Below are positions 35 to 16,410 of a DNA stretch of 21,640 nt, piece after piece. Made by a program: the position numbers and the translations under genes. This DNA comes from a virus. The DNA lies in IMG/VR virus record IMGVR_UViG_3300031999_005246, positions 1-21,640 of that record; one strand, 5' to 3'. The stretch's first letter is position 1. Each line of letters begins with the position of its first letter. Below the pieces are notes generated by a model. The model was not told the DNA's origin. It did not search any database and saw only the letters and a list, made by a program, of their open reading frames with translations.

Positions 35-499
35 ATGAAGGTGACCTGGTTAGATGTGCATAAGACAGTTAATCGTATGACACTCTACTTGGAGCAGGTG
101 CACAGTATGAATAGGTTGTTTGGACATACGATAGTCGGTATTTCGAGAGGGGGACTTGTGCCCGCTGTAATGCTATCTAACCGGTTCGAGGATTTGCCCT
201 TCCAGATTGTGCAAGTGCAACGTTATCATGGCGAAAAGATGCAGTGGAAAACGTTTAAAGAGATTGTGAAGGATGCCACTTATCATCTAAATAAGGGGCC
301 ATATATCTTCATTGATGATATATGCGATGAAGGGTTGACCTTTAGAGCGTTGGATTTAGCAAAGAGTGATGAGGATAACTTGTATTGTTGTCTAGTTTGG
401 CGGAACAATGAGAGAAGTCAGTTTAAACCGAATTATGCAGGTATGACGATAGATAGTAAGGAGTGGGTGGTATTTCCATGGGAGAAAACACAGAGCTGA
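35..499 (+). CDS. Purine-type phosphoribosyltransferase
   Basis: This 154-residue protein looks like a type I phosphoribosyltransferase of the xanthine/hypoxanthine-guanine kind, which joins a purine base to PRPP to give a nucleoside monophosphate. Visible signatures are the N-terminal GISRGGLVP loop (35-43), the PRPP-binding strand and loop IFIDDICDEGLTF (91-103, with DEG where DTG is usual) and a C-terminal WVVFPWE (144-150), typical of short microbial guanine/xanthine PRTases. A purine-rich AGAGGGGGG lies just before the ATG, which abuts the TAG of the upstream gene. It is the gene directly before folE2, and their ends overlap by 22 bases. Plain purine salvage is the simplest role. Acting on a 7-deazaguanine base such as preQ0 is an inference from the neighbours only. 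The fold is clear; the substrate is not. Confidence 0.8.
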   Translation: MKVTWLDVHKTVNRMTLYLEQVHSMNRLFGHTIVGISRGGLVPAVMLSNRFEDLPFQIVQVQRYHGEKMQWKTFKEIVKDATYHLNKGPYIFIDDICDEGLTFRALDLAKSDEDNLYCCLVWRNNERSQFKPNYAGMTIDSKEWVVFPWEKTQS

Positions 500-1293
500 A
501 AGATGTGCAGGGATTGCCTGATGACAGGGACATCGTTATAGATATGGTGGGTGTTAGGGAGGTGGAATGGCCCATTAAGCTAAAGGATAGAGTAAACGAG
601 ATTCAATACACTAATGCAAAGTTTGCGATGTATGTAAGATTGCCTAAGGAACAAAAGGGTACGCATATGAGTCGATTTGTAGAGGCTCTGGTCACCTTTT
701 CTAACAACGATGAGTTCTTCTCAATGGATGTAATGGCAGATAAAATGTCACCTTATATTGCTAAGGACTTGAATGCAGAGTTTGTGCATATAGAATGTGA
801 GTTCACGTATTTCCTAGATGTGTTATCTCCAGAGACTAAGATTAGGTCTAAGCTGCCAGTTAAGGTGTGTTTTATAATAGAGTATCATAGCCAGAGTCAA
901 TTGAAGCATAAGGGATTGGAAGTTAAGGTACCCGTTACAACTTTATGCCCCTGCTCTAAGGAAATGTCAGAAACACCACACAATCAACGAGGGATAATAA
1001 CTATGCAGATACAAGCCAATGATTTCCTCTGGATTGAGGAGTTGGTTGAAATTGCGAGTAAGTCATGTAGTTGTCCCATCTTCCCGTTGCTGAAGAGACC
1101 TGATGAGAAGTTCGTGATGGATGTGGCTGGGGAGAATCCAATGTTTGTAGAGGATGTAGTAAGGGAGGTTGCTATTAGGTTAAAAAGAGATAAGAGAATT
1201 TTGTCCTTTACAGTTGGGTGTGAGAATATGGAAAGTATACATCCGCACAATGCATTTGCAACAGTGGATTGGGAGAGAGATGATAGTCCTTAA
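478..1293 (+). CDS. folE2: GTP cyclohydrolase IB (FolE2 type)
   Basis: FolE2 opens the ring of GTP to make dihydroneopterin triphosphate, the first step of both folate and 7-deazaguanine synthesis. Unlike FolE it does not depend on zinc. The 271-residue length is usual for the family. Conserved blocks are KGTHMSRF (60-67), LCPCSKE with the likely metal-binding Cys (156-162), HNQRG (168-172), ENPMFVEDVVR (219-229) and ENMESIHPHNA (249-259). The CPC and HNQR forms match bacterial FolE2 better than archaeal MptA. I chose the ATG at 478 because GGGTGG at 465-470 lies seven bases upstream; a GTG at 463 in frame sits too close to its own AAGGAG. The start overlaps the PRTase gene by 22 bases, so translation is probably coupled. 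With queC downstream, preQ0 synthesis is a likelier purpose than folate. Confidence 0.93.
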   Translation: MGENTELKDVQGLPDDRDIVIDMVGVREVEWPIKLKDRVNEIQYTNAKFAMYVRLPKEQKGTHMSRFVEALVTFSNNDEFFSMDVMADKMSPYIAKDLNAEFVHIECEFTYFLDVLSPETKIRSKLPVKVCFIIEYHSQSQLKHKGLEVKVPVTTLCPCSKEMSETPHNQRGIITMQIQANDFLWIEELVEIASKSCSCPIFPLLKRPDEKFVMDVAGENPMFVEDVVREVAIRLKRDKRILSFTVGCENMESIHPHNAFATVDWERDDSP

Positions 1294-1619: not shown

Positions 1620-1817
1620 ATGATAGTAAGGGTTATAGATTTGGGAGAAGAAGGAAATCCCAGGATAGAATTTCAAACAGAGGGGTGTTCTTGTTGTTCA
1701 ACTACTTTATATCCAGATAATGTTGAAGAGATAAGGAAGGAATTAATGGAACATACTAAAATAGTTAAGGAAGTTTGCAAAATCCTGGGGTGGGATACAA
1801 AGGAGTTTTTATCATGA
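1620..1817 (+). CDS. Small Cys-containing protein, function unknown
   Basis: A 65-residue protein, unrecognised. The ATG at 1620 is chosen because AAGGAG at 1607-1612 lies seven bases before it; an ATG at 1578 in frame would add 14 residues but has a weaker site. The N-terminal part is a predicted beta pair (MIVRVIDLGEEGNPRIEF) leading into GCSCCS, a tight Cys trio that could bind a metal. The rest looks helical (NVEEIRKELMEHTKIVKEVCKIL). The stop overlaps the next start as ATGA, so it is translationally coupled to the uracil-DNA glycosylase gene. No function can be assigned. Confidence 0.7.
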   Translation: MIVRVIDLGEEGNPRIEFQTEGCSCCSTTLYPDNVEEIRKELMEHTKIVKEVCKILGWDTKEFLS

Positions 1818-2470
1818 GAGAGTGTATAGCAAAGTGTGATGGGTGTACTCTTCACATACCTGAGGAGGTATTAGCTACAGCACCAGTGGAGGCGGTGTTT
1901 GTTAATGGGGAGGGCCCCCAACCAGCTGAGTTGATGTTTGTGGGAGAAGCCCCCGGAGAGAATGAAGTATTGCAGAAGAGACCTTTCGTCGGGAGAAGTG
2001 GTCAACAATTGAATAGGCTCCTTGAAAAAGTTAACATAAAGAGGACAGGTTGTCGCATATCCAACTCATGTATTTGTCGCCCGCCTAATAACAGACCACC
2101 TACAGTCGACGAAGTGAACTCCTGCCGCCCATCCCTTTGGGCCGAGGTGGAAGATACCAATCCTCGGATTATTGTGGCTTTGGGGAGGACCGCATACTCC
2201 TCACTAATGAACGTACCAATGGAACTAATCCCTGATTTGGATGCCCACCATGGTTTCGTATATCCATGCTGGATAGGTGGCCCAAGGAAGCTACTCTTTA
2301 CCTACCACCCGTCTGCAACTTTGAGGTCCATCCTTTGGGAGTCCCATTGTAGGGACGACTTACGAAGAATTGGTGAATTGTTGACCACTGAAGAGGTGAT
2401 TATAGACAATGTCACATGGAGAAATTCGTTGTATAACTTGCCGAAGTCAGGGGTTAATCAAGTCTTGTAA
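1814..2470 (+). CDS. Family 4 uracil-DNA glycosylase with [4Fe-4S] cluster
   Basis: This 218-residue enzyme belongs to the family 4 uracil-DNA glycosylases, which cut uracil bases out of DNA. Motif 1 is GEAPGENE (44-51), followed by RPFVGRSG; the second active-site motif is HPSATLR (165-171). The iron-sulphur ligands fit the family exactly: a C-x2-C pair at Cys8 and Cys11 and a C-x15-C pair at Cys88 and Cys104, with the typical CRPPNNRPPT between. The ATG at 1814 has AAGGAG at about 1800-1805, eight bases upstream, and overlaps the preceding stop as ATGA. The second half of the gene is visibly richer in GCC/CCC codons than its neighbours. The role in a virus may be repair of deaminated cytosine during replication; a link to DNA modification is only contextual. 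Confidence 0.9.
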   Translation: MRECIAKCDGCTLHIPEEVLATAPVEAVFVNGEGPQPAELMFVGEAPGENEVLQKRPFVGRSGQQLNRLLEKVNIKRTGCRISNSCICRPPNNRPPTVDEVNSCRPSLWAEVEDTNPRIIVALGRTAYSSLMNVPMELIPDLDAHHGFVYPCWIGGPRKLLFTYHPSATLRSILWESHCRDDLRRIGELLTTEEVIIDNVTWRNSLYNLPKSGVNQVL

Positions 2471-3614: not shown

Positions 3615-3883
3615 TGAATAATGGTGTGCAGATGCAAAAGTGTATAGTATGTGGGGCCGAATATATGGGGCATCACTACTGTCCCAATATCAAGATAAAT
3701 TGGTCAGGATACACCTCCCCCTTGAGTGTGTACACTTGGTACAAATGCCCGAATTGTCATGGAGAATTCTCCCAGTGGGATGCTGTTCAAAGCACAGGAA
3801 CATCAATGAGGCAATTCTGCCCCTTTTGCAATATGGAGAAGGCGACATATCCTAAGATAAGAGAAGGAGATGTGGGAAAATGA
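3611..3883 (+). CDS. Zinc-ribbon protein, function unknown
   Basis: A 90-residue protein with three Cys pairs: CIVCGAEYMGHHYC near the N-terminus, CPNCHGEF in the middle and CPFC near the end, arranged like a double zinc ribbon. The ATG at 3611 is chosen because GAGAAGGTGAT at 3597-3606 precedes it and the start overlaps the previous stop; a longer frame from 3584 begins inside the upstream gene without a good site. Its stop overlaps the queC start as ATGA, so it is coupled to queC. It may be a nucleic-acid-binding or adaptor protein. A direct link with preQ0 chemistry is not shown. Confidence 0.7.
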   Translation: MMNNGVQMQKCIVCGAEYMGHHYCPNIKINWSGYTSPLSVYTWYKCPNCHGEFSQWDAVQSTGTSMRQFCPFCNMEKATYPKIREGDVGK

Positions 3884-4578
3884 GCAATGTTGTATGTTTG
3901 GTATCTGGCGGTCTAGATTCGGCGACGGTCTTAGGGTTGATGTTAGCTGAGGGCCATTATGTCTTCCCCCGGACTTTCAATTATGGTCAACTCCACAAGA
4001 GAGAGCTCGAAAGTGCACAGCAGGTGGTCTGGTACTACCAACGCATGTTTCCCGCGCAGTTAGCGACCTTAGAGGTGGTTGAGCTGCTCTTCCTGAAGAA
4101 GCTTGGTGGTAGCGCACTCACTGACCCAACCCTTGCAGTCCCCCTACAAAGAACCGACGGTGAAATGTCTAAGAAGATTCCCATAACCTATGTCCCCGGT
4201 CGTAATACCATCCTGCTATCTGTTGCCCTCTCCATCGCCGAAGTCAAAGATGCCGATGGCGTTGCCATTGGTGTCAACGCTTTAGATTACTCAGGATATG
4301 CCGACTGTCGACCAGAATACATAGATGCTATGAATGGGGTGGCCAAGCTCTCTTCAAAAAGGGCAGTGGAGGGCCGCCCAATAACAATACTCGCCCCCCT
4401 TCTGCATATGACAAAGCGTGACATAATACTTAAAGGCACGGAGATTGGAGTCCCATACGAGTTAACCTGGTCTTGCTACCAGGGAGGAGGGAAACCCTGT
4501 GGCAAATGTGACTCCTGCATTCTCCGTGCCCGGGGCTTTGAGGAAGCCGGACTCAAAGACCCCTCTCTATCATCCTGA
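3880..4578 (+). CDS. queC: 7-cyano-7-deazaguanine (preQ0) synthase QueC
   Basis: QueC uses ATP and ammonia to convert 7-carboxy-7-deazaguanine to preQ0, the precursor of queuosine, archaeosine and several modified DNA bases. The 232-residue length is standard. The PP-loop SGGLDS lies at 9-14, FNYGQ at 33-37, YVPGRNT at 104-110 and GVNALDYSGYADCRPE at 131-146. The C-terminal zinc site has Cys199, Cys207, Cys210 and Cys213 in SCY...PCGKCDSC. All key residues are present, so the enzyme should be active. The start overlaps the zinc-ribbon gene as ATGA. The gene uses many GCC, CCC and CTC codons, unlike its AT-rich neighbours, which hints at separate acquisition. The stop overlaps the convergent minus-strand gene by nine bases. 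Confidence 0.96.
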   Translation: MSNVVCLVSGGLDSATVLGLMLAEGHYVFPRTFNYGQLHKRELESAQQVVWYYQRMFPAQLATLEVVELLFLKKLGGSALTDPTLAVPLQRTDGEMSKKIPITYVPGRNTILLSVALSIAEVKDADGVAIGVNALDYSGYADCRPEYIDAMNGVAKLSSKRAVEGRPITILAPLLHMTKRDIILKGTEIGVPYELTWSCYQGGGKPCGKCDSCILRARGFEEAGLKDPSLSS

Positions 4579-10890: not shown

Positions 10891-11556
10891 CTAATTGAAC
10901 CAATCACCAGCTCCCTTCCAGAAATGATTCCAACCAGTCCCACTACCAAACTTCTCCTCACTCCAATCATAAAACCCATTCCAATCTATTACATGAAATG
11001 GTCCCCAGGATGGCTCCCTACCCTGCTTAGGGGGCTTCTTCAACGTTACCGCACCATAATTACCCATAGGGGCAGCACCCACCACCTTCCCATCACTGTC
11101 GGTAATATATTGAAATACAGCCCCCTCAAATTGCACAGGCATAAACTTTCCCAAATCAATATTGGCATCAAATGACGTACTACTATTACTATCCTCTACA
11201 ACCTTTACCGACTTCACAACCATATTATCAAAGTACCCCAAATCACAAACTATATCAAACGTTAGCTTATTATCCCACAGATCCATTATAAATAAGAACT
11301 GGTCCATCCTATTAAACTCCCCCGAATTTATTGCTGCTAAACTTGCCTCATGGCTACTTCCCATAGTATCCGCAGGAGTAAAAACATTAGAATAAAACTT
11401 CAAAGACAAACTAAGGGATATTTGCTGCTTCTCAATATGATCATGAGCAAGTTCTCCATTCTCCATAGTCTTATCAGTAATACTAGAACTAATACCAAAA
11501 TCAAGACTAGCAACGCCCCTATACTTGGCCCCATCAATCACCATATCAGTGTTCAT
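10891..11556 (-). CDS. Dit-like / tail-tube initiator protein
   Basis: This 221-residue protein directly follows the tape measure gene, where distal tail or tube initiator proteins lie. The N-terminal part (VIDGAKYRGVASLDFGISSS, then HDHIEKQQISLSLSLKF) matches the beta-strand pattern of Dit-like N-terminal domains found in contractile phages, and DLWDNKLTFDIVCDLGYFDNMVVKSVKV is typical of the second half of that domain. The C-terminal 60 residues are Gly-, Trp- and Pro-rich (WGPFHVIDWNGFYDW) and may interact with the hub. The ATG overlaps the tape measure stop as ATGA, with GAGAGGTC upstream. Confidence 0.5.
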   Translation of the reverse strand: MNTDMVIDGAKYRGVASLDFGISSSITDKTMENGELAHDHIEKQQISLSLSLKFYSNVFTPADTMGSSHEASLAAINSGEFNRMDQFLFIMDLWDNKLTFDIVCDLGYFDNMVVKSVKVVEDSNSSTSFDANIDLGKFMPVQFEGAVFQYITDSDGKVVGAAPMGNYGAVTLKKPPKQGREPSWGPFHVIDWNGFYDWSEEKFGSGTGWNHFWKGAGDWFN

Positions 11557-14048
11557 TCTGATGACCTCTCAAAATCACTATTCAACTGCCTAATAGTCTC
11601 CCTAGTAGCCTTACTAACAACCCTACCCAACCTCTCCTCATTCATATTACCATTAACTTGAGTCCCACTTATGTTCACACTAACACTCGGGGCAAACACC
11701 CTATTACCTCTCGCCTCACTCGCATTAATAAAAGATGTCCTCATATCAAATTTGCCCTTATACCCCTGATGGAAATCCACTAATGTATTACCCAATCCAC
11801 TAACAGCTAAAGAAGCCGCCTCAGCATCTAACTGTATATCATGGAAGAAAGGAGATTGACTTCCACTACTCTCATAAGCTGATGCTGCATCATCAGTTGC
11901 TGATTGGAACATTGCTATGGCACCAATGGCCAGCCCAATAGCCCCTACAATTGCTAATACAGGATTCATCCACATAACCGTATTCAAATATATCCATACC
12001 GGTATCATAGCCAATAATGCTGCAGACACCCACCCTACACTATCTTTCAACATCATGAATATTGTAATCATGGCCATTATAGGAAGGGCCGCCATAGCCA
12101 CTCTGGTGGCCTTTAGTGCAAAGTTCGCCCTCCATGTAGAAGCAGTTAACACATCGGTTGATTTTGCAAGTATCCAATTCTTTAACTTAAGTACCCCCGT
12201 CCAAAATGACATAATTCTTGCCCTCTCTGAGTATAAATACATTATAACAGTCAGGGCAGTTAGGGCTATTTCCACTGCTGCTAATACCTTGTTTCCCTCC
12301 CTCCATTGTCTAATAGAATCTGTCCAAAGGAAAAGTACCATACCCGCAGCCACTGCTAATTTTACAAGTGATTTTGTCAATGCCCATGCTGCTGCAGCCG
12401 CAGCTGTCATACTTCCAGCTACAGTCCGCCAACCTTTTATCAACAGATTAGTATAACCAACATTCGTATTCATCTTAAGATTAATCTCATCCTGCTGCTG
12501 ATTAACAACCATTTGTGCCGCAGCAACCAACATCAACGTGCCGGCAAATGTCAATAACTTACCAGTTAAGGTAAACACTGTATATATCGTCAATGAGAAG
12601 ATAGCAACCACTTGTTTCAAAGGATCAGGCAACTTATCAATCACTTTAATTATTTGAACCAAAATCTTATTCCAATCCTCAAGTAAAGGAGCCAACGTCT
12701 TACCATATGACGCATACAACGTATCCCAAGTTGCCTTCAATACGTCAGTAGACCCCTTCAAAGTTGTCAATCTCTCCTCAGCTATCAAAGTAGCCGAAGA
12801 AGCTGACCTAATAGTCTCCTCCCAATTCTTTGAAGTATCAGTCAGCACCGTAACTATATTATTTGCAGCATCTGCAGATATATTAAACGATATCAACTTC
12901 TGCTTTAAATCCTCTAAACCATACGTTTGCCCCTTCAGCTCTTTTCTCCACTGTACTAAGATATTGGTAGCATCCCCACCAAATTGATTATAAAGGGCGG
13001 CCTTAGCACCCACAGCAGTGAGCGCCAATTCATTCTCCCTTATATCATTAACATTCTTCTTATAAAGAGCCGACCAAAGAGTTAATGCCTCTGTACCGAA
13101 TATTTGTGCCAAGGTAGAATTCCTTTGCACCTCAGTCAGCCCTGCCATCTTAGTTTGTAACACCTCGACTATATCAGCAACACCCTTCAGATGATTATCC
13201 GCATCAAGAAATGCCTTGCCATACTCCTCAACAATTTCAGCATGGGTTGCCATCTCACCAGAAGCACTCGCCGCTATCTGCTGCAACTTCTGTAAAGATA
13301 TCCTTAAATTTCTACCCGCTATCCCCGACCTTATCATGTTATCTCCTGCAACCATTAACACAGCTAAAGTCTCCTCCACAGACCAACCTGCTAACGCCGC
13401 AGAAGCGGATACAAATTTGAAAGCTTCAGCCAACCCTTGAACAGACACCACACTCTCATTTGCAGCATATACCAACTCATCTGCTATCAATGCGAATGTC
13501 TGCATTACATCATTAGTTGACCTGGCCTGCATATCAAATCCATTGAATATACCAACAGCCAGATTAACTGCATCGCCAACATCCATCATGCCGACTCTAG
13601 CCATATCTAATATAGCTGGCGTAGCACCCATAACCCCATTATAAGTAAAACCAGCCATTGCTAATCCCTGCATTGCTTCCCCTACTTGCTTTGCAGAGAA
13701 GCCAGTCTTCATACTCAACTCTAACATCTTGTCGGCTACTCTCTCAGTTTGGCTAGCAGTTGCCCCTAACACCGTACCAACTATCGCAGCTTGGTATTCC
13801 ACTTCAGAATAAGCGGTGGCCATCCTATGAGCAATATTCCCAAAAGATTGCCCTATTCTACTTAACATTCCGCCAGCTGCCATTAAACCGAAAGCCATAT
13901 AAAGAAAGACGGTCCTCGTCCCACTAGCATTCTCGGCAGCTTCATTGATGGCCTGGCCTAGCGCTTTAGTTTTAGAAACAGCATCGCCATATTTCAGCGA
14001 CATTGCTATGTCAATATCTATTTTTTTGCTACCAGCGGTATCAGCCAT
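11553..14048 (-). CDS. Tail tape measure protein
   Basis: The largest gene in the window, 831 residues. Residues about 80-300 match the TP901-type tape measure core: YQAAIVGTVLGATASQTERV, FSAKQVGEAMQGLAMAGFT, DAVNLAVGIFNGFDM and AGRNLRISLQKL. Several hydrophobic, probably membrane-inserting stretches follow between about residues 480 and 720 (FSLTIYTVFTLTGKLLTFAG, AMITIFMMLKDSVGWVSAAL). The C-terminus is basic and helical. If the usual 0.15 nm per residue holds, the tail would be near 125 nm. The ATG at 14048, eight bases after GGAG, is preferred over TTG 14051. It overlaps the stop of the frameshifted chaperone frame as TGATG. Confidence 0.92.
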   Translation of the reverse strand: MADTAGSKKIDIDIAMSLKYGDAVSKTKALGQAINEAAENASGTRTVFLYMAFGLMAAGGMLSRIGQSFGNIAHRMATAYSEVEYQAAIVGTVLGATASQTERVADKMLELSMKTGFSAKQVGEAMQGLAMAGFTYNGVMGATPAILDMARVGMMDVGDAVNLAVGIFNGFDMQARSTNDVMQTFALIADELVYAANESVVSVQGLAEAFKFVSASAALAGWSVEETLAVLMVAGDNMIRSGIAGRNLRISLQKLQQIAASASGEMATHAEIVEEYGKAFLDADNHLKGVADIVEVLQTKMAGLTEVQRNSTLAQIFGTEALTLWSALYKKNVNDIRENELALTAVGAKAALYNQFGGDATNILVQWRKELKGQTYGLEDLKQKLISFNISADAANNIVTVLTDTSKNWEETIRSASSATLIAEERLTTLKGSTDVLKATWDTLYASYGKTLAPLLEDWNKILVQIIKVIDKLPDPLKQVVAIFSLTIYTVFTLTGKLLTFAGTLMLVAAAQMVVNQQQDEINLKMNTNVGYTNLLIKGWRTVAGSMTAAAAAAWALTKSLVKLAVAAGMVLFLWTDSIRQWREGNKVLAAVEIALTALTVIMYLYSERARIMSFWTGVLKLKNWILAKSTDVLTASTWRANFALKATRVAMAALPIMAMITIFMMLKDSVGWVSAALLAMIPVWIYLNTVMWMNPVLAIVGAIGLAIGAIAMFQSATDDAASAYESSGSQSPFFHDIQLDAEAASLAVSGLGNTLVDFHQGYKGKFDMRTSFINASEARGNRVFAPSVSVNISGTQVNGNMNEERLGRVVSKATRETIRQLNSDFERSSE

Positions 14049-14574
14049 CAATCCATCTCCATGAAATGATATTGGTGTATACGAGGACCTTCTGATTTTT
14101 TACTTCCGGACTGTAGATCATAGTACTTTTTCAAAGCAGTCAAATGCCTTATAAACTTTTTAAACGACCACTTCTTTATCTCGTCTACAGGCACCTTGAA
14201 CTCTATTGATATGAGATAGACAGGAAATTCCTCATCTACCTCATCACCAACTTTTTTTGGGCCAACTCCGAAAGCCCCAGTACATCTTCCAAATGTCCAA
14301 GTATCTGGGTAACTACAACTCCCTTCATCTCTTTGCTAAAGTCAATTGCCGGCTCCATTATACATGATTTCATTAACTCTCTCGCATACACACTTTGAAT
14401 AAGCTCACCATCAACCATAGACTTTTTTGTAATGGCAAACATATCCTCGGCATTCAAATCTCTTACCTTAAACGTTATACCGGAGACCTCAAAGGTAAAA
14501 AGCTCCTTACCTACATATAACCGTTCAAGTGGATCGGTGTTCGATCCCTTCTCGCTTGGGGTGTTCCCATTCAT
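14048..14574 (-). CDS. Tail assembly chaperone, long form made by -1 frameshift (gpGT-like)
   Basis: A 175-residue fusion made if ribosomes shift -1 on A AAA AAG at 14257-14251. The first 108 residues are shared with the short form (stop at 14236); the next 67 come from the -1 frame (14251-14048), beginning VGDEVDEEFPVY and containing FKKFIRHLTALKKYYDLQSG. This frame has no start of its own, fills the whole gap between the short-form stop and the tape measure gene, and its TGA overlaps the tape measure ATG. This is the lambda gpG/gpGT arrangement: both forms bind and protect the tape measure during tail assembly and are absent from the virion. Position, slippery site, stem-loop and frame all agree. 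Confidence 0.85.
14211..14257 (-). promoter_or_regulatory. Programmed -1 frameshift signal: A AAA AAG plus stem-loop
   Basis: The slippery heptamer A AAA AAG (14257-14251) is in the correct phase with the zero frame (CAA AAA AAG). Six bases later a stem forms between ATGAGGTAGA (14244-14235) and TCTATCTCAT (14220-14211): ten pairs with one G-U, around a 14-base loop that holds an inner AGGA/TCCT pair. The zero-frame stop TAG (14238-14236) lies inside the stem. Heptamer, spacing and structure match known -1 signals such as that of dnaX. Confidence 0.85.
14236..14574 (-). CDS. Tail assembly chaperone, short form (gpG-like)
   Basis: The zero-frame product, 112 residues, acidic and mostly helical after a beta start (LFTFEVSGITFKVRDLNAED). 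The length and place, between tail tube and tape measure genes, are those of the lambda gpG family. Its last residues, LSELAQKKLVMR, include the Lys-Lys pair encoded by the slippery site. The ATG at 14574 has AGGAGGG seven bases upstream. A small DUF-type tail protein would be the alternative, but the frameshift extension makes the chaperone call strong. Most ribosomes should stop here, giving an excess of the short form. Confidence 0.85.
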   Translation of the reverse strand: MNGNTPSEKGSNTDPLERLYVGKELFTFEVSGITFKVRDLNAEDMFAITKKSMVDGELIQSVYARELMKSCIMEPAIDFSKEMKGVVVTQILGHLEDVLGLSELAQKKLVMR

Positions 14575-14596
14575 TACATTTCCCTCCTGCTTATAA

Positions 14597-14636
14597 CAAT
14601 AAAAAAGAAAAAGGAGAACACCTATGCGGTGTTCTC
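14597..14636 (-). terminator. Intrinsic terminator overlapping the tail tube stop codon
   Basis: On the minus strand a perfect nine-pair stem, GAGAACACC (14636-14628) with GGTGTTCTC (14622-14614), closes a five-base loop and is followed by CTTTTTCTTTTTTATTG. The tail tube TAG (14624-14622) lies at the loop-stem edge, so ribosomes ending there would cover the hairpin. Genes downstream must be transcribed by read-through or from a promoter I cannot see. Confidence 0.85.
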
Positions 14637-15080
14637 ATAGTAGTTATAACCTATAAACTTATAGGTGTACGTTGGCGCATTCTTCTTATCGGTCTTATAC
14701 TCAGGATAACCCTGAATCCAAGCAGATCTCATTCCCCGACTGGCAAATCCAAATGCATTTATATAATCGGGGTTTATCACTTCAATCTTGAATTCAATCG
14801 GTGGTTGGGTGCCATCTTGCATGGCCCTGATTAGTTCCCTTAAATAGACATTCTCAGGTGAGGATGCGTTCAACGAGAGCGAAGCCTCTGCCCTCGTTGT
14901 AGTATCCACATTGAACCCTACCTCACTTACAAGCCCATCAATCACCGAAGAGTCACCAGCTGGCGTTATACCGAAACCCTCGGCAGCAATACCAGTCATT
15001 GGCTTACCGTTGACCGAACACCTGACCATTTTTATGTTGTATACCTGCGGACCACCCGCTACATTTAGTTTCTCAGCCAT
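14622..15080 (-). CDS. Tail tube protein
   Basis: A 152-residue protein directly after the sheath and before the chaperone pair, the standard place of the inner tail tube of contractile phages. The sequence is a beta-rich protein with NIKMVRCSVNGKPMTGIAAE, GLVSEVGFNVDTTTRAEASL (a typical tube phrase in which a strand carries a ligand-like 'TTR' turn) and a helix at ENVYLRELIRAMQDGT; the C-terminal TYTYKFIGYNYYEN is a final strand. Length agrees with tube proteins of about 140-170 residues. AGGTGATAT precedes the ATG. GC-rich codon choice and a dedicated terminator suit a very abundant product. Confidence 0.8.
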   Translation of the reverse strand: MAEKLNVAGGPQVYNIKMVRCSVNGKPMTGIAAEGFGITPAGDSSVIDGLVSEVGFNVDTTTRAEASLSLNASSPENVYLRELIRAMQDGTQPPIEFKIEVINPDYINAFGFASRGMRSAWIQGYPEYKTDKKNAPTYTYKFIGYNYYENTA

Positions 15081-15090
15081 TTATATCACC

Positions 15091-16410
15091 TCACACACTT
15101 ATCGCGAGATTCAGAGTGATCGACTCGATCCTTCCAGTCAGGTAGACAGTCACATATATATTCTTCAGAATGCGCGCTGCCTTATCAGCACCTGATATGT
15201 CGGAAAAGAGTGGCACTGCTACACTAAAGCCAGACTTCCTCACTCCATTCTCGACAAATGGCTGTTTCAGGGCGCCCATATCTACCATCTTTTGGCAGGT
15301 CCTTTCTATGCAGGACTTGACATTCTGTATGCCTTCAGTTGTAAACGGAACAGGCACATCAGCTATCAGAGATTCCAAATCCCACATTATGCTCTCCTCC
15401 AAGTAATACCGCGTCCTCGTCACGTCGATAAACTTGTAGGAACCAGTCCCAGCCATAGACAGACCATCAGAGATCCTCCAAAGAGACTGCTTTAAAATAA
15501 GAGCATTCTCGTTGCTGGCCTCAAAGTTAGCAACCTCAGTCTTGTTAAACTGGGTTATGTTCGCAGAGGTCAGATTGCTCATTACTTTCCACATCAGCTT
15601 ATCCCACGGCACAGTTAAGGCCATCCTCGCCGCTAAGATGGCGCCCATGTCCTCAGTAGTTGTGGTGTTCCTGTGTGCAAAGGTGATAACGTTCTTCGAC
15701 GTGAAGGAAGTCTGTACATTACACTTCAGATCCGTGACCTGGACTGCCGCCAACTGATCGCCTCTTCCATTGATTGGCATTATCCAAGCGTAGGTATCAG
15801 CTAGATCTTCCACCTTGGCGAAAGGTCCCCAGTCCTGACTCGAAAATCCACCATTGCCACCAGTGCCCTGTGTGTAATGGACAAAGTAGATTATGTCGAC
15901 CAGCCGCTCATAGTCCTTCACAGCATTCCCTAGTGCCGTGATGTCATACCAATCGTACGCCACGGTCTTGGAACCGGAACCGCTGAGGAATATCTTTCCA
16001 CCCTCAGTTCCAACACTCGCTTTGCTTGCGCCAGGGTCTACGGGCGGATCAGTGAAGTCGTACTGTATAGTGTATGTCGCACAGACAACACTCCCACCTT
16101 TCACAGGAGTATAGGCAAAGACATTTGCCGCCCCAGCAGTTATAGACTCAGAGGCCACTGTGGTCTTAAGCACCTTCACCGCGTAGAAGGACGTAATCCC
16201 CATAGCGAAGAGGTTGGTTGCAGCCTTGTACACCTTACTCGTATTCAGGAAGTCCGTTACTATATCAACAATGGAATTATATTTCTTCACAGTGTTGACA
16301 GTCAAACTCCCTCCCTCATTCTCACCAATCAGAAGTATTGAGCCGTAGCTCGGCACAATTTCTCCCGCAACGAGAATTGTAGTATCTACTGCTACTGGAT
16401 CAACCGGCAT
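15091..16410 (-). CDS. Tail sheath protein
   Basis: This 439-residue protein is the contractile sheath that wraps the tail tube. The C-terminal half carries the family pattern: DVTRTRYYLEESIMWDLESL, TTEGIQNVKSCIERTCQKMV, a GALKQPFVENGVRKSGFSVA segment and a last beta part that reads IYVTVYLTGRIESITLNLAI, which joins neighbouring subunits. The N-terminal domain contains GSILLIGENEGGSLTVNTV and FAMGITSFYAVKVL, also seen in sheath proteins. The middle has a variable insertion exposed on the surface. AAGGTG precedes the ATG. It is followed by the tail tube gene after only ten bases. Codons end in G or C more often than in most neighbours. Confidence 0.9.
   Translation of the reverse strand: MPVDPVAVDTTILVAGEIVPSYGSILLIGENEGGSLTVNTVKKYNSIVDIVTDFLNTSKVYKAATNLFAMGITSFYAVKVLKTTVASESITAGAANVFAYTPVKGGSVVCATYTIQYDFTDPPVDPGASKASVGTEGGKIFLSGSGSKTVAYDWYDITALGNAVKDYERLVDIIYFVHYTQGTGGNGGFSSQDWGPFAKVEDLADTYAWIMPINGRGDQLAAVQVTDLKCNVQTSFTSKNVITFAHRNTTTTEDMGAILAARMALTVPWDKLMWKVMSNLTSANITQFNKTEVANFEASNENALILKQSLWRISDGLSMAGTGSYKFIDVTRTRYYLEESIMWDLESLIADVPVPFTTEGIQNVKSCIERTCQKMVDMGALKQPFVENGVRKSGFSVAVPLFSDISGADKAARILKNIYVTVYLTGRIESITLNLAISV

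Follow-up and report, generated by a model that had tools for sequence, protein, structure and literature searches.

The window analysed here, a stretch of 21,640 bases of viral DNA, carries on its minus strand a gene (14574-14048) that very probably makes two tail assembly chaperones by a programmed −1 frameshift of the lambda gpG/gpGT type, as judged from its sequence and a structure model. The lambda-like logic had been put forward in the original prediction, and is supported by a heptamer, stop and −1 extension that are kept in relatives, by a compensated stem in the closest relative and by the chaperone-like modelled fold of the short (G-like) protein. Gene position, modelled fold and the layout of the frames jointly favour the lambda G/GT mechanism far above any other reading of this gene.

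The minus strand holds most of the coding in the window, and the chaperone gene is found there between the tail tube and tape measure genes. The genes and signals of this region are as follows.

15091-16410, minus strand: tail sheath gene of a contractile tail (phrog_205 tail sheath, 9e-23; ChaoS9 sheath over its full length, 3e-14)
14622-15080, minus strand: putative tail tube gene, directly upstream of the chaperone gene (phrog_280 virion structural protein, 6.1e-7)
14583-14588, minus strand: AGGAGG, ribosome-binding site of the chaperone ORF, read from sequence, with a GGAGG equivalent in the relatives L004 and L019
14236-14574, minus strand: G-like short tail assembly chaperone ORF in the zero frame, 112 aa, assigned by fold, position and sequence
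14048-14251, minus strand: T-like −1 frame extension, 67 codons and TGA, assigned by its open frame and homologues
11553-14048, minus strand: tape measure protein gene, 831 aa (PHROG tape-measure families with E down to 1.6e-49; Pfam PhageMin_Tail, 6.7e-33)

The window encodes further contractile-tail components, namely a Dit-like protein, a baseplate hub and baseplate J. At the boundary of the tube and chaperone genes lies a terminator-like hairpin with a U tract (14636-14614, minus strand) that holds the tube stop codon in its loop, and L004 carries a comparable hairpin at this place, different in sequence (GAGACCGCC...GGTCTCC) and with T's after it. This hairpin is perhaps an attenuator that lowers chaperone and tape-measure expression. 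Near the 5' end of the chaperone ORF, an inverted repeat, GGATCG-AACAC-CGATCC, falls within 18 bases identical to L004 (14548-14531, minus strand), the third longest identical run in the alignment of the two.

The signals proposed for the slip lie close to the end of the zero frame, and the heptamer can be read directly from the sequence in the right phase, six codons before the TAG at 14238-14236.

14266-14269, minus strand: GGAG, a Shine-Dalgarno (SD)-like stretch 8 bases upstream of the heptamer, inside a 23-base run identical in L004
14251-14257, minus strand: slippery heptamer A AAA AAG, in the zero-frame phase CAA AAA AAG
14211-14244, minus strand: stem-loop 6 bases 3' of the heptamer, with the zero-frame stop in its 5' arm

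The −1 frame is open for 67 codons (14251-14051), and its TGA (14050-14048) overlaps the tape-measure ATG (14048-14046). As claimed from the letters, the chaperone gene's −1 frame thus fills an otherwise empty gap before the tape measure gene, and the zero frame and the −1 fusion give the predicted product pair of 112 and 175 residues. In the longer protein the predicted junction would join AQKK to VGDE, within the peptide AQKKVGDEVDEEF. The further statement that the extension has no start of its own proved true before codon 20 only, since a GTG stands at codon 20, with two TTG and two ATG near the end. The same gene has another in-phase A AAA AAG, at 14428, which looks like chance, since it is not kept in L004 (GAAAAAG there).

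An open stretch of 67 codons arose in 0.4% of Markov sequences with the composition of the T region and in 0.9% of those with the composition of the window (20,000 each). In-phase A AAA AAG occurs twice in the 6914 codons of the window's listed genes, both times in the chaperone gene. We scanned stop-to-stop frames of at least 80 codons (n = 245, from 11 sources) for a heptamer in the last 20 codons with at least 30 open −1 codons, and obtained 13 matches in 12 frames. Ten of these frames lie directly upstream of the tape measure gene, as against 2 among the 235 others. At the chaperone position the signature appears once per source in 10 of the 11 sources, L028 being the one without it, and the distance from heptamer to stop in the scanned signatures ranges from 2 to 17 codons. 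The two signatures away from this position, in L021 (stop 7738) and L023 (stop 9143), were taken as chance. L024, outside the 11-source scan, has the same site as L023; L008 and L009 were also outside it, and both repeat L004. No heptamer site was found in L026, L027, L028 or the haloarchaeal viruses ChaoS9 (L002) and phiH (L003), all of which were scanned for one.

Relatives were not reached by viral-contig scans with the fused protein alone or the tape measure alone, and a tblastn search of phage records with the 175-aa protein, at an E limit of 10, gave 11 records at chance level. L004 was found through baseplate J, and L008, L009, L010, L019 and remoter loci through tape-measure alignments. 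L004, L008 and L009 are near-identical contigs from three IMG/VR datasets, with no differences among them over the 82 columns of the slip region. CCAAAAAAAG, the TAG and the stem are present in all three, as is the overlap of the −1 stop with the tape-measure ATG (TAATG), and the long product of L004 is 66% identical to that of the window. Over the alignment from tube to tape measure the window and L004 are 72.6% identical, and the longest identical run in this alignment is the slip site itself, 23 bases (CGGAGTTGGCCCAAAAAAAGTTG). Between the two, the −1 extension has 10 changes at first, 15 at second and 26 at third codon positions; pN/pS is 0.47 in the T frame versus 0.32 in the zero-frame part, a value for the T frame that suggests only moderate constraint.

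Relatives whose tape measures are as little as about 30% identical still share the heptamer, the stop position and the −1 extension. In L010 and L019, whose tape measures are 31 and 30% identical to the window's over the alignment, the homologous spot reads CAAAAAAAC. Its heptamer is A AAA AAC, and the zero-frame stop of L019 comes directly after it (A AAA AAC TGA). The residues that flank the slip align across the window, L010 and L019 (QKK[VL]..E), and from the slip onward the −1 extensions of L010 and L019 align with that of the window, keeping E, E, Y, W and a C-terminal Y.F. The real T alignment score was reached by 0 of 2000 shuffles for the window and L010 and by 1 of 2000 for the window and L019. 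The −1 frame is open, as the original prediction expected of related viruses, in viral contigs whose T aligns with the window's. For L020, which keeps the signature, T homology is not claimed, as 1860 of 2000 shuffles reach its T score with the window.

This conservation bears on two other explanations of the split frame. Homopolymers are a common place of sequencing indels, so a single ORF could have been broken by an indel in the A run, either as a sequencing or assembly error or through decay of the gene. The same zero-frame stop and −1 frame recur, however, in L004, L008 and L009, from three datasets, and in the diverged L010 and L019, and the protein's needs alone do not account for the conserved stem (below). 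We assign error or decay a negligible probability and regard it as refuted in practice. Alternatively, T could be a separate protein, begun at an internal start (the GTG at codon 20) or by re-initiation after the TAG, and unfused, as annotated in ChaoS9. GTG and TTG codons are indeed present in the window T frame, and ChaoS9_095, a 69-aa product with its own ATG directly after a G-like ORF, carries the T motif, with a score against the window T that was reached in 1 of 2000 shuffles. Against this, no ATG, GTG or TTG precedes codon 20, whereas E4, E8 and Y12 do not vary among the four aligned T sequences, and an internal start does not explain residues kept between the slip and the first possible start. 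Moreover, the candidate starts are not at homologous places (GTG 4752 in L010, GTG 5428 in L019), and a separately made T would leave the heptamer kept for no reason. We thus consider independent translation of T extremely unlikely, and fusion by a −1 shift remains the preferred reading.

The predicted ten-pair stem is present six bases past the heptamer, behind the spacer TTGGTG (14250-14245), with arms at 14244-14235 and 14220-14211 and the zero-frame stop within it. Its ten pairs, one of them G-U, are followed by one more pair and a 4-pair apical extension, for 15 pairs in total. The minimum free energy of the 67-nt stretch is −22.2 kcal/mol, versus −10.7 ± 2.4 in shuffles (z −4.8), and none of 200 shuffles was as low. 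All 15 pairs form in both distinct sequences, those of the window and L004, with none broken, while sliding of the arms lowers the paired cells to 40-47%. Five of the 15 pairs differ between the two, three with both sides changed and two through exchange of G-C and G-U. In a covariation shuffle control 44 of 500 did as well, a weak result that comes from two distinct sequences only. Synonymous recoding of the T frame reached 15 pairs in 0.515% (window) and 0.095% (L004) of 20,000 cases, and an energy as low in 0.3% (window) and 0% (L004) of 2000. That synonymous recodings so rarely match the stem argues that it is kept beyond what the protein needs.

A stem stimulator is nonetheless not general in the group, since L010 (z −0.8) and L019 (z −0.5) have no convincing stem after the heptamer. 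Folds of other shapes after the heptamer are significant in L025 (z −3.4) and L022 (z −2.9), and no clear fold follows it in L020, L021, L023 and L039 (z between −1.7 and 0.9). Upstream, GGAG or GAGG lies about 8 bases before the heptamer in the window, L004, L010 and L019, as GAGG in the latter two, and the Glu codon within this SD-like stretch is invariant, for whatever reason. In dnaX, an internal SD sequence stimulates frameshifting, and by analogy the GGAG may possibly serve as an internal stimulator here.

The composition of the slip site allows for a further explanation, in which RNA polymerase slips on the seven-A run and mRNAs with a net −1 (or +2) A give the long product. The window, L004, L010 and L019 all have a homopolymer (A7) at the site, and T-rich runs are present in L021 to L024 and L039. 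Yet none of these runs is longer than an A AAA AAN heptamer behind a Gln codon requires, every heptamer is in the correct phase, and its distance from the stop is 2 to 17 codons. Polymerase slippage also needs no stem, whereas the closest pair of sequences has a conserved, compensating one at the usual frameshift spacing. Slippage during transcription is in our estimation highly unlikely, and slippage by the ribosome is the reading followed below.

The predicted structure of the short protein points to the same function as its position. The G model (mean pLDDT 71) aligns with YqbN (3klu), which we take to be a tail assembly chaperone of the G kind, with Z 8.4 over 92 residues at 12% identity, and with the HK97 tail assembly chaperone (2ob9) with Z 5.7 over 89 residues at 16% identity. 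When the model was searched against BFVD, the second match was a ChaoS9 tail assembly chaperone (E 1.4e-3), with further chaperones following; a plain Foldseek search against the PDB was weak (best E 0.53), with the HK97 chaperone first. The short protein thus models as a tail assembly chaperone-like fold, a likeness that by itself is no test of function. In Pfam, PHROG and NCBIfam, G has no significant match and T no convincing one, and the T model, three helices, has no clear structural match. With hhalign, the G alignment did not match ChaoS9_090 significantly (probability 1.3), and T gave a short match to ChaoS9_095 (20 columns, probability 15).

The window differs from lambda, whose heptamer is another one, in its A AAA AAG, its contractile tail, the stem that holds the zero-frame stop, and a G and T too diverged for recognition by sequence families. 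Like lambda, it has two overlapping-frame products encoded just upstream of the tape measure, a slip near the end of G and a T that lies solely in the −1 frame. In lambda, gpG and gpGT are described as made from overlapping frames through a programmed −1 frameshift (PMC5009743). The arrangement itself is standard and far from rare: in 3679 SEA-PHAGES genomes, the PRFect authors counted 2397 tail assembly chaperone genes that were joined.

In tailed viruses of archaea, four papers describe predicted −1 G-T shifts in HVTV-1, HCTV-1, HCTV-2, HCTV-5 and Hardycor1 (G GGA AAT), the named −1 cases being siphoviruses, and predicted +1 shifts in the archaeal myoviruses HSTV-2 and the HF1 group (PMC5009743, PMC7911831, PMC7230728, PMC8211752). 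The archaeal G-T frameshifts described there share gene position and logic with the window, and HCTV-2 is said to use A AAA AAC, like L010 and L019. The window virus, in contrast to the +1 shifts given there for HSTV-2 and the HF1 group, combines sheath and baseplate J genes with a −1 site, and a search of the open-licence literature turned up no −1 site reported for an archaeal myovirus. One of the papers counts a single case of −1 frameshifting by archaeal ribosomes, fucA1, as demonstrated (PMC8211752). The remote Halobacterium phage ChaoS9, the best full-length sheath match, shares the order sheath-tube-G-T-tape measure with the window, but its T-like domain is annotated as a separate ATG-started ORF and the heptamer was not found. 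This ORF, ChaoS9_095 (L002 2436-2645, annotated as uncharacterized), carries the T-like motif PIEEIAQWPWRK and is possibly an unfused T chaperone.

We consider an archaeal host for the window virus likelier than not. The window sheath is closest to that of the haloarchaeal ChaoS9, and the 43.5-kb contig of L019 carries a family-B polymerase (PolB) nearest to those of haloarchaeal tailed viruses and an ERCC4 nuclease nearest to that of a Methanobacteriales virus, as well as FolE2, QueC and ThyX. The window itself has non-tail genes on its plus strand.

463-1293, plus strand: FolE2
1775-2470, plus strand: family-4 uracil-DNA glycosylase
3880-4578, plus strand: QueC

FolE2 and QueC are part of the preQ0 (7-deazaguanine) pathway, which suggests modified viral DNA. 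Counting against an archaeal host, the best matches of the window FolE2 are a faecal phage and two Staphylococcus records, and those of the window tape measure are mostly phages of bacteria. A genome scan with the tape-measure pair gave no match; for one with the four-row alignment the sole match, weak and remote, was L039, from a deltaproteobacterial MAG, and the host is thus not revealed by any provirus. A search of L035, L036, L006 and L037 for tRNA genes found none. In L036 (8004-6331, minus strand), a radical-SAM protein, QueE-like by context, is interrupted by an intein with LAGLIDADG domains.

In the mechanism we propose, most ribosomes would read the zero frame and release the 112-residue G-like protein at the TAG at 14238. 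On A AAA AAG, where lysine tRNAs would fill the P and A sites, a smaller share would move back one base with help from the stem-loop that lies 6 bases further on and, perhaps, from the upstream SD-like GGAG. Translation of 67 more codons would then yield a GT-like protein of 175 residues. If lambda is a guide, the G part would coat the tape measure protein encoded just downstream, the T part would bring tail tube subunits to it, and the ratio of G to GT would be set by the frequency of slipping. The heptamer and its phase, the stem with its compensatory changes, the conserved −1 frame and the chaperone-like modelled fold of G follow from the sequence, whereas we infer that the slipping is ribosomal, how often it occurs, what the two proteins bind and that the GGAG acts like an SD element.

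Reading this gene as frameshifted recovers a protein that simple gene calling misses, and mends the annotation of an uncultured virus group. Whether archaeal ribosomes use a −1 frameshift with a stop-containing stimulatory stem in a lineage of contractile-tailed archaeal viruses we put at even chances; if they do, the site, together with the upstream SD-like element, would offer a compact, naturally occurring reporter for −1 frameshifting by archaea. Should the host be archaeal, the A AAA AAG and A AAA AAC sites, with or without a stem, would be ready-made test pieces for archaeal −1 frameshifting.
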